Source of the DNA: Candidatus Woesearchaeota archaeon
GTDB taxonomy: Archaea > Nanobdellota > Nanobdellia > Woesearchaeales > 21-14-0-10-32-9
Assembly: GCA_020854775.1 (NCBI GenBank)
Contig: JAHKLZ010000017.1
Location: 1-60,641, forward strand
DNA length: 60,641 nucleotides
Direction of reading: 5' to 3'
Below the pieces are notes generated by a model, which saw only the letters and a list, made by a program, of their open reading frames with translations, was not told where the DNA came from and ran no database searches. The first letter of the stretch is position 1, and the number at the start of each line of letters is the position of its first letter. Shown here piece by piece: positions 26,323-60,641 of the stretch. The position numbers and the translations under genes were made by a program.

Positions 26323-26330
26323 GGTGAAAT

Positions 26331-26593
26331 GCGCGCCGAGAAGTGGATCGTACATCAGTGAAACAGTGTGTTCTTCAAGGTTCCTCCTTCCTGCAACCCC
26401 TCAAACACCAACACTCAAGGTTATGGCTGCTTCATTCCTGACCTGACCAGGTTCCCAGGAGTGTCGATCAAGAGGGACAGGTTATCGACGGTTCCTCGAA
26501 GACTGCTTCGCTGAAGCAGACCTCCTTCTCGGCTTCGTCCCCCACGTGAAGCCGGTTTTGGGTTACAAGGCACGGCTAACGCCCCGGACTAGC
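26331..26593 (-). ncRNA. SRP 7S RNA
   Basis: The minus strand contains archaeal SRP RNA. The 5' domain reads CGTGCCTTGTAACCCAAAAC, the helix 3/4 region that forms the loop-loop contact, followed by ACGAAGCC. The helix 8 tip, at about 26425-26455 on the plus strand, reads GTCAGGTCAGGAATGAAGCA on the RNA, with a GGAA tetraloop closed by A:U and the AGCA side of the symmetric loop that binds SRP54. Length is about 263 bases. A minus-strand TATA box at 26614-26624 places the start near 26593. The closing helix 1 between the two ends is not obvious, so the 3' end is approximate. Confidence 0.9.
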
Positions 26594-26613
26594 AGTTTTA
26601 GTAGTGTTTCTTT

Positions 26614-59131: not shown

Positions 59132-59207
59132 GATACTATTTGAATAATTGAATCTTTATTAATTTATCGAAGTCTTTTCTTTTTCTATGTTCTCTAATAT
59201 AAATGTC

Positions 59208-59307
59208 TTATAACATCAGGGATATACGAAGTTTTTTTTGGAACGAAGTGAAATAAAAATTTGGGTGAGCGAAGTGCAACGAGCGAACCCTTTAAGCCTT
59301 GTTAAAT
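59208..59307 (+). repeat. attC-like recombination site 1
   Basis: A 100-bp element that opens with TTATAAC and ends with GTTAAAT (fits GTTRRRY). It shares AACATCAGG, GAAGTTTT, AAAAATTTGGG and CCTTGTTA with sites 2 and 3. Its inner arms are the least regular of the three, and the middle contains GGGT/ACCC and gaacgaagtg repeats. The terminal 7-mers are not complementary to each other, as expected if they belong to different cassettes. Confidence 0.75.
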
Positions 59308-59415
59308 CCGCCGACGACTGAAAGGAGGAGAGCGCGGCGTGCCCGAGCCGTAGGCGAAGGAGTTTTTGTGCCTATATTAAAATATTGCCTGCATTGTTCT
59401 TGCCACTCGTTTTTA

Positions 59416-59432
59416 CCGAAACATTTATATAG
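59416..59432 (+). promoter_or_regulatory. BRE/TATA promoter inside cassette A
   Basis: Sequence ccgaaacatttatata is a textbook local promoter, about 45-60 bases before the ATG at 59477. The cassette therefore brings its own archaeal promoter. Confidence 0.7.
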
Positions 59433-59436
59433 TTTA

Positions 59437-59452
59437 ATGAATATATATTCAT
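59437..59452. promoter_or_regulatory. Perfect 16-bp palindrome, probable operator
   Basis: ATGAATATATATTCAT begins five bases after the TATA box and reaches the expected transcription start. A protein bound here would block polymerase. The DUF134 protein encoded downstream is a predicted DNA-binding protein and the obvious candidate autoregulator. Confidence 0.6.
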
Positions 59453-59476
59453 AACTAAATGTGGAGGTAAAGTAAA

Positions 59477-59650
59477 ATGCCAAATAAAGACGGAACAGGA
59501 CCAGAAGAAAAAGGACCTAGAACAGGAAGACAGATGGGAAATTGCGAAGGAGCAAAACCTACTGGTAGAGGTTTAGGACCGCGCGGAAGTGGAATGCGAA
59601 GAGGTTTGGGAAGAAGATTTGTAAACAAAGCTCCAAACAACAAGGATTAA
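59477..59650 (+). CDS. DUF5320-like small Gly/Arg-rich protein
   Basis: A 57-residue protein too short for usual ORF cut-offs. 'MPNKDGTGPEEKGPRTGRQMGNC' and 'TGRGLGPRGSGMRRGLGRRF' match the Gly/Pro/Arg pattern of DUF5320 proteins (usual start MP.GDGTGP.G.GP.TGR). A GGAGGT site precedes the ATG. It is followed two bases later by DUF134, a common pairing in anaerobes next to NifX/NifB-type genes. No such partner is present here, which fits capture of the pair as a mobile cassette. Confidence 0.75.
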   Translation: MPNKDGTGPEEKGPRTGRQMGNCEGAKPTGRGLGPRGSGMRRGLGRRFVNKAPNNKD

Positions 59651-59652
59651 GA

Positions 59653-59985
59653 ATGCCACGACCATGCAAGAGAAGAAGAGTTGGATGTCGACCAAATTCT
59701 TCTTATTTTAAACCCGCAGGAATACGAAAAGTCGAATTAGAGGAATCTGTTTTAGCTGTTGATGAATTTGAAGCTGTGAGATTAAAAGATTATTTAAATT
59801 TAGATCAAAATGAATGTTCTGAAAAGATGAATATCTCACAGCCAACTTTTCATAGATTAATCTTGTCCGCTAGAAAAAAAATTGCTGATGCTATTGTAAA
59901 TGGCAAAGCAATAAAGATTGAGGGTGGCAATTTCATATTTGAAGAACATCATGGAAGAAATAGTTGTGGCAGGCACAAGCAATAG
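59653..59985 (+). CDS. DUF134 predicted DNA-binding protein
   Basis: A 110-residue protein of the DUF134 family. 'MPRPCKRRRVGCRPNSSYFKPAGI' is the family opening, 'LAVDEFEAVRLKDYLNLDQNECSEKMNISQPTFHRLILSARKKIADAIVNGKAIKIEGGNF' is a sigma-70 region-4-like HTH, and a His/Cys tail ('EEHHGRNSCGRHKQ') may bind metal. It is a probable regulator of its own operon through the palindrome at 59437-59452. Site 2 begins 14 bases after the stop. Confidence 0.9.
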   Translation: MPRPCKRRRVGCRPNSSYFKPAGIRKVELEESVLAVDEFEAVRLKDYLNLDQNECSEKMNISQPTFHRLILSARKKIADAIVNGKAIKIEGGNFIFEEHHGRNSCGRHKQ

Positions 59986-59998
59986 GCACAAAAATTGG

Positions 59999-60091
59999 AT
60001 TTAACATCAGGATTTAGAGAAGTTTTTGCGACAGCAAAAATTTGGGTGGAAGAAACTGCAAGTTTCTGGAACCTCTAAATCCTTGTTAGTT
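59999..60091 (+). repeat. attC-like recombination site 2
   Basis: A 93-bp element: ATTTAAC (fits RYYYAAC) at 59999-60005 and GTTAGTT at 60085-60091. Inner arms AGGATTTAGAG and CTCTAAATCCTT pair, with a two-base asymmetry (TC) on the left arm that could be an extrahelical base set. The middle holds a perfect 7-bp hairpin AGAAACT/AGTTTCT. The opening 7-mer is the exact complement of the closing 7-mer of site 1. Confidence 0.82.
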
Positions 60092-60165
60092 GCGTCTTTT
60101 CGTAGAAAAGACCGAGGGATAGCTGCAAACGGTTTTTTGCGAAGCAAAAAAATCCCGAAGAGTTA
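60092..60165 (+). other. Structured GC-richer segment after site 2
   Basis: It contains CTTTTC/GAAAAG (loop GTA) and TTTTTTGC/GCAAAAAA (loop GAA), the second enclosed by GGGAT/ATCCC. Segments of similar make-up, including a shared cgag...gcgaag core, follow site 1 (59308-59362) and site 3 (60592-60641). No coding frame is convincing. Confidence 0.5.
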
Positions 60166-60177
60166 TTATTATGTGCG

Positions 60178-60435
60178 TTAATCAATAATTTTTAAAGAAT
60201 CAGACATAATTAGACTTGCAGACCTATGATTCATGCTCCTTGGGTTGCTCATACGAACTCCCCATCCTCTTTTAATATAGGGAATTAGTTCTTCAACCGA
60301 ATCCACAACCACATAATTTTTTTCGAATCTATCAGGACTAGTGATAAATTTATTCTCTCTCCTTGGATGCCTATGAGGGTATAATTCAATGCCTTGTTCT
60401 GGTCCCGATTTGACATAAGCTATAAGATTAACCAT
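60178..60435 (-). CDS. Uncharacterised 85-residue protein in cassette B
   Basis: A soluble protein with no recognised family. 'YPHRHPRRENKFITSPDRFEKNYVVVDSVEELIPYIKRGWGVRMSNP' mixes a basic patch with an alpha/beta-like end. It is the only gene between sites 2 and 3 and faces against the array's direction. An upstream TATA-like ttaagtataaaac on the minus strand (about 60447-60460) suggests its own promoter. Confidence 0.55.
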   Translation of the reverse strand: MVNLIAYVKSGPEQGIELYPHRHPRRENKFITSPDRFEKNYVVVDSVEELIPYIKRGWGVRMSNPRSMNHRSASLIMSDSLKIID

Positions 60436-60497
60436 ATTATTGAAAATATTGTTTTATACTTAAATAATTTTTTATATTAGCCCATAATAATAATTGC

Positions 60498-60591
60498 AAC
60501 TAACATCAGGATTTAGAGAAGTTTTCGGAACGAAGTGGAAGAAAAATTTGGGAAAATTCAGCAAGAATTTTCCTCTAAATCCTTGTTAAAT
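60498..60591 (+). repeat. attC-like recombination site 3
   Basis: A 94-bp element: AACTAAC at 60498-60504 and GTTAAAT at 60585-60591. Arms AGGATTTAGAG/CTCTAAATCCTT match site 2, with the same two-base asymmetry, while the middle is different (perfect 8-bp hairpin GAAAATTC/GAATTTTC). The opening 7-mer is the exact complement of the closing 7-mer of site 2. A further cassette starts at 60586 and runs off the window. Confidence 0.82.
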
Positions 60592-60641
60592 GAGGGTGAG
60601 CGAAGCGAAAGGCTGCAAGCCGTCCCCGAGGATTTGCGAAG

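Follow-up and report, generated by a model that had tools for sequence, protein, structure and literature searches.

A candidate integron-like platform with a Xer-type integrase in a woesearchaeal genome and its relatives

At the end of a woesearchaeal contig three similar elements alternate with small genes, which raises the question whether an archaeal chromosome can carry an integron and, if so, what kind of recombinase would work it. The window (the whole stretch analysed, 60,641 nucleotides) is the complete contig C17 of the 1.18-Mb, 58-contig genome of Candidatus Woesearchaeota archaeon; it is archaeal, with an archaeal SRP RNA at 26325-26599, and the array runs off its end. A sequence-only reading had proposed either an archaeal integron array or an integrase-less attC cluster. 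The reading reached here, which we hold with high confidence, is that the elements are attC-type sites of a chromosomal integron-like platform, in which a Xer/XerA-related recombinase that lacks the IntI-specific domain (a "patch-less" enzyme) would join an attI site with folded attC.

The three elements (59203-59312, 59994-60096 and 60493-60596) all lie on the + strand and share the conserved ends AACATCAGG...CCTTGTTA; in this, in their spacing (791 and 499, start to start) and in the pairing of slightly asymmetric inner arms (GGATTTAGAG with CTCTAAATCC, leaving a one-sided 2-nt bulge), the sequence-only reading was accurate. Their middles are two hairpins set on a conserved junction (GAAG-hp1-TTTGGG-hp2). 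Elements 2 and 3 are covariance-model matches; element 1 (R1 match, 71.6 bits; alignment A1) marks the array's distal end, at the greatest distance from the integrase. Between elements 1 and 2 are two + strand cassette genes, encoding a DUF5320 protein of 57 aa (59477-59650; Pfam PF17253, 8e-11) and a DUF134 protein of 110 aa (59653-59985; Pfam PF02001, 1e-26), and between elements 2 and 3 is an 85-aa ORF on the - strand (60178-60435) that belongs to no Pfam family. The flank start and next cassette that follow element 3 (60597-60641, +) run on to contig C7 or a near-identical copy; C7 begins and C19 ends with a repeat of the last ~140 bases of C17. The Lit gene beside this array end is just 29-39% identical in relatives.

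Element 1 is followed on its R'' side by a hairpin-rich flank (59313-59365, +) resembling that at C7:23758 (blastn, 74.5% over 157 nt), and element 2 by another (60097-60170, +) containing a GCGAAGC triloop. Hairpin-rich R'' flanks of this kind, 100-200 nt long, are kept with the element here and at equivalent positions, with 74-93% identity among this genome's copies. Element 1 is also a hybrid: its arms, GGGATATACG / CCTTTAAGCC, make a weak stem, and because its two L arms mismatch it folds no better than its own shuffles (z +1.75). Two further elements (L043:3068-3171 and L045:16411-16516) likewise have L arms from different element types, and the three look as if they were products of recombination inside the element.

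The general fold is a stem made of R (5 bp) and L (11 bp), continuous but for a bulge of 2 nt between them in the attI-like arm, which leads into a junction with two hairpins. DNA-fold z scores are about -3 to -8 in 6 of the 7 copies tested from this genome. In an alignment of 149 copies the proposed partners pair in 96.3% of cells and both sides have changed in 601 cells (vs 139 in shuffles); sliding the partner by 1-3 columns lowers pairing to 31-50%. The compensatory changes keep the R, L and first-hairpin stems. As for bacterial attC sites, which fold single-stranded with the bottom strand preferred, the strand predicted to fold more stably is the integrase-sense one (139 of 147 elements). 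Perfect triloop hairpins point the same way: 112 of 139 in the elements read GNA on the integrase-sense strand, and none does on the other. In DNA, mini-hairpins of the GNA type, GCGAAGC among them, have exceptional stability. A mini-hairpin of this kind is reportedly employed in a published study, PMC4686876. Confinement of GNA triloops to one strand, together with the predicted folds, favours use of the elements as folded single-stranded DNA.

Searches that started from the elements themselves and went on to a covariance model trained on 12 of them brought to light at least 15 copies in this genome, on contigs C17, C7, C19 and C25, so that the repetition that the sequence-only reading had seen extends beyond the window, and into relatives as well. 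Elements are present in 21 of 60 genomes in the relatives search (the present genome counted), and a second covariance model (60 copies, E <= 1e-6) finds them in 118, about a third, of the 371 phylum genomes scanned; a Pacearchaeota MAG and an Aenigmatarchaeota MAG are carriers beyond that genome set. Virus contigs with related recombinases yielded no element in the 44 loci searched (of 80). On CPR and spirochaete contigs, diverged elements lie upstream of a related recombinase in the archaeal orientation (L258:1105-6855, from Peregrinibacteria, L251 and L283). The layout of the Peregrinibacteria contig is that of the archaeal arrays, which suggests, as no more than a lead, a wider range. An element-like match in Spirochaetota (L260:7672-7781, E 1e-5) is on the strand opposite its recombinase; this opposition of recombinase and elements has been reported for spirochaete integrons.

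Strong hairpins with conserved sequence around them, repeated many times in a genome, would also be expected of mobile repeats that are non-autonomous (MITE, REP or IS200/605-like hairpins) or of structured RNAs and terminators, and such sequences might come to lie between genes by chance. No Rfam family matches the elements at gathering threshold, however, each array keeps to one element orientation, and the elements mark the boundaries of gene modules. A further test of this alternative is provided by the cassettes. If a unit is excised as a circle its two ends flank a single folded site, and they should therefore pair. In the window they do so exactly: the left core of element 2, GGATTTAAC, and the cassette start GTTAAATCC on the 3' side of element 1 are reverse complements of each other, as are the left core of element 3, GCAACTAAC, and the cassette start GTTAGTTGC on the 3' side of element 2. 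Over 107 adjacent pairs, scored at the six outer bases beyond the AAC/GTT core, a cassette start is complementary to its own end at 5.05 of 6 positions on average (58 pairs are perfect), vs 2.86 for the own-element control, 3.02 for the wrong neighbour and 2.83 for random pairing; none of 10,000 shuffles reaches 5.05 (the best gives 3.21). Twenty further loci, unused in finding the signature, yield 33 pairs with 4.52 of 6 (best of 10,000 shuffles, 3.64). The match is kept even where the core is mutated, as in C19 (GTAAAAT..CC/GGATTTTAC) and in another genome, G029 (GATAAATT/AATTTATC). The unit thus has the make-up of an integron cassette, one or more genes plus an attC whose R'' core is complementary to the cassette start, and the held-out arrays conform. 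This complementarity spans two different elements across a cassette, a pairing that a transposed repeat would not yield, and the attI match described below links the elements to a recombinase gene; mobile repeats or RNAs have next to no probability as an explanation, and the elements are treated below as sites of the integron-like platform.

Cassettes have a median length of 849 bp and their longest ORFs run in both directions (64:45). The cargo comprises whole restriction-modification (RM) systems along with other accessory genes. In this genome it includes a methylase and endonuclease pair of NgoPII type and a HinP1I endonuclease with a C5 methylase-like ORF next to it. Also present are an Eco57I-type enzyme and GmrSD, and a type III Mod/Res pair adjoins the attI-like site. 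Methyltransferases, DNA methylases, isochorismatase, class I tRNA synthetase (W/Y) and GmrSD are the commonest named families among 145 cassette proteins. One cassette (L043:3380-7123, on C7 of this genome) encodes an LD-carboxypeptidase of family S66 (MccF-like), a TrpRS-like protein and a second class-I-synthetase-like protein, and could serve in self-protection against an aminoacyl-nucleotide antibiotic. The sequence-only reading looked to presence and absence of cassettes in related genomes for corroboration, and here it went unrewarded: no cassette was found to be common to arrays of different species or to arrays within genera, so that cassette turnover is something we infer rather than see.

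What enzyme might act on these sites? The window contains no integrase, as the sequence-only reading noted. A tyrosine recombinase was found in 21 of 42 first-set array loci, and in all 21 it shares the strand of the array and lies downstream of its last element (about 7 kb beyond the array in genome G054). In the held-out loci it is again always on the element strand, and strictly downstream in 6 of 8; in the other two (L194 and L201) the recombinase has elements on its far side as well. About ten arrays have none within sequence spanning at least 4 kb downstream. Arrays of this last kind, or those with elements past the recombinase, could be secondary arrays or arrays in decay.

Between the last element and the recombinase gene, mostly 50-250 bp upstream of the start of the latter, 19 of the 21 loci have an attI-like site (14 with an exact 9/9 match), composed of ATT, a core complementary to the outer arm of the nearest element, 3 nt and a TATTAARCGAA-like box. 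The site recurs in 5 of 6 held-out loci and, by pattern or by eye, at three array-clade recombinases that have no element nearby; L102 and L103 have no recognisable attI. Judged by sequence, then, an attI lies beside the integrase at the array end. In the present genome the matching integrase gene is on C25 (78552-79349, - strand) with the attI-like site directly upstream of its start, together with one element and an adjoining type III restriction-modification cassette. Read on the opposite strand, the order is that of a bacterial integron: leftward integrase, attI, then repeats of gene(s) plus attC. The C25 enzyme would, we propose, serve the arrays of C17, C7 and C19. Elsewhere in this genome a 3-kb contig carries three tandem tyrosine recombinases (G000:C36:85-2702, L031), resembling a recombinase-in-trio (RIT) element.

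These findings bear on the second suggestion of the sequence-only reading. A CALIN is a cluster of canonical attC sites left behind by a normal IntI, or served by one in trans, with no working archaeal platform behind it. Most archaeal integrons reported to date are CALINs (PMC9668308), the window has no integrase, and the same is true of the vicinity of about ten arrays. On the other hand, recombinase and attI-like site occupy the same array end and strand at most of the loci that could be followed. By definition the genome of a CALIN has no integrase; this one lacks IntI but has the C25 recombinase, and the presence there of recombinase, attI-like site and element disfavours an integrase-less cluster for this genome. 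Across the phylum, IntI exceeds the cut-off in none of 371 genomes, all of them drafts or MAGs in which an IntI gene could have gone unassembled. The elements also differ from canonical sites: element model R2 finds no attCs in records carrying class 1 or phage IntI integrons (pattern extraction of canonical attCs recovered just a handful, not enough for a reference model). A CALIN is accordingly very unlikely, and the integron-like platform remains the preferred reading.

The sequence-only reading had anticipated a tyrosine recombinase with the IntI-specific patch: the recombinase is there and the patch is not. Positions ~180-237 of TIGR02249, the IntI-specific domain, are without counterpart in the array recombinases, and alignment to the V. 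cholerae IntI structure (2a3v) leaves a gap at residues 174-245. Phylogenetically, 23 array-linked recombinases and 2 others form one clade (support 97/91), and 5 array-linked and 2 others a second (100/98); host XerA (95/92) and IntI (100/100) stand apart, one array-linked recombinase is unplaced, and branching among the groups is without resolution. IntI was considered as the array enzyme and rejected, its domain being missing, the clades separate and no IntI exceeding the cut-off in the 371 genomes.

The nearest relatives with a solved structure or a named family are XerA and archaeal XerC-like proteins (NF040815; PDB 4a8e, 5hxy), and this kinship lends itself to a different view: that the host XerA acts on the elements as double-stranded, dif-like targets, either in chromosome resolution or in a dif-module system. 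The array-linked proteins, however, fall outside the chromosomal XerA clade, in clades of their own, and are encoded beside attI-like sites and element arrays, whereas the five host XerA genes inspected have no attI-like site upstream. Moreover, the element arms vary within a genome yet stay self-complementary; this suggests that a fold, and not a fixed double-stranded sequence, is what is recognised. Dif-like XerA targets are extremely unlikely; what the data support is an integron-like platform with a Xer-type integrase.

Its working can be pictured as follows. A dedicated Xer/XerA-related tyrosine recombinase would recombine the attI beside its own gene with the folded single-stranded attC of a circular cassette. 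Each new cassette would be inserted next to the integrase and older ones displaced outward, making the window the oldest, distal end of an array, with its last three sites, the DUF5320/DUF134 cassette and the 85-aa cassette. The elements, their folding and covariation, the cassette signature, the attI-like site, the gene order and the missing IntI domain can all be read from DNA; from them we infer recombination activity, single-strand use and insertion at attI.

The platform shares with bacterial integrons the integrase - attI - attC-cassette layout, the conserved R''/R' cores AAC/GTT at element ends, circular-cassette complementarity and the more stable folding of the integrase-sense (bottom) strand, as seen in the aac(6')-Ib attC folded for comparison. 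In bacterial attCs a central spacer stays unpaired and the R''-L'' arm carries extrahelical bases (PMC2727003). The archaeal elements, in contrast, lack both the unpaired spacer and extrahelical bases in L''; their 2-nt bulge sits on the attI-like arm, opposite to the bacterial extrahelical bases, and they have a conserved three-way junction. The integrase has no IntI-specific domain, attI in many cases has an inverted repeat of its own, and cassettes can be large and multigene. As to the first suggestion of the sequence-only reading, an archaeal integron array, its architecture (cassettes, folded sites, an attI-like site by the recombinase) is therefore borne out, while an IntI-type integrase and canonical attCs are not.

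Archaeal integrons are already known: Ghaly 2022 described them from 75 MAGs, with six IntIs and most arrays integrase-less (PMC9668308). Those arrays resemble the present ones in being attC arrays of archaeal MAGs, including Nanoarchaeota, mostly without integrase, and differ in their IntI-profile integrases, the recombinases here being patch-less. The integrase search of that study required a match to the IntI-specific profile (PMC9668308), a filter that would miss the recombinases of these arrays. A literature search, conducted mostly outside subscription journals and preprints, found no paper on an archaeal patch-less integrase with its own attI, and the patch-less platform looks new. On balance, though with appreciable doubt, it probably represents a second integron lineage shared by DPANN archaea (diverged in some CPR bacteria and spirochaetes), with a patch-less Xer-type integrase and folded single-stranded attC, sister or ancestral-type to IntI integrons.

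By the account of Messier and Roy 2001, cited in PMC9668308, IntI requires for its activity an extra domain that is unique to it. A complete-looking platform without that domain makes the requirements of folded-site recombination directly testable. For the small-genome archaea that carry it, the presence of whole restriction-modification systems, GmrSD and HEPN/MNT-type pairs among the cargo suggests a reservoir of defence genes that is reshuffled. Searches that insist on the IntI profile will report such arrays as integrase-less at best, and the integrons of reduced-genome archaea are therefore probably undercounted.
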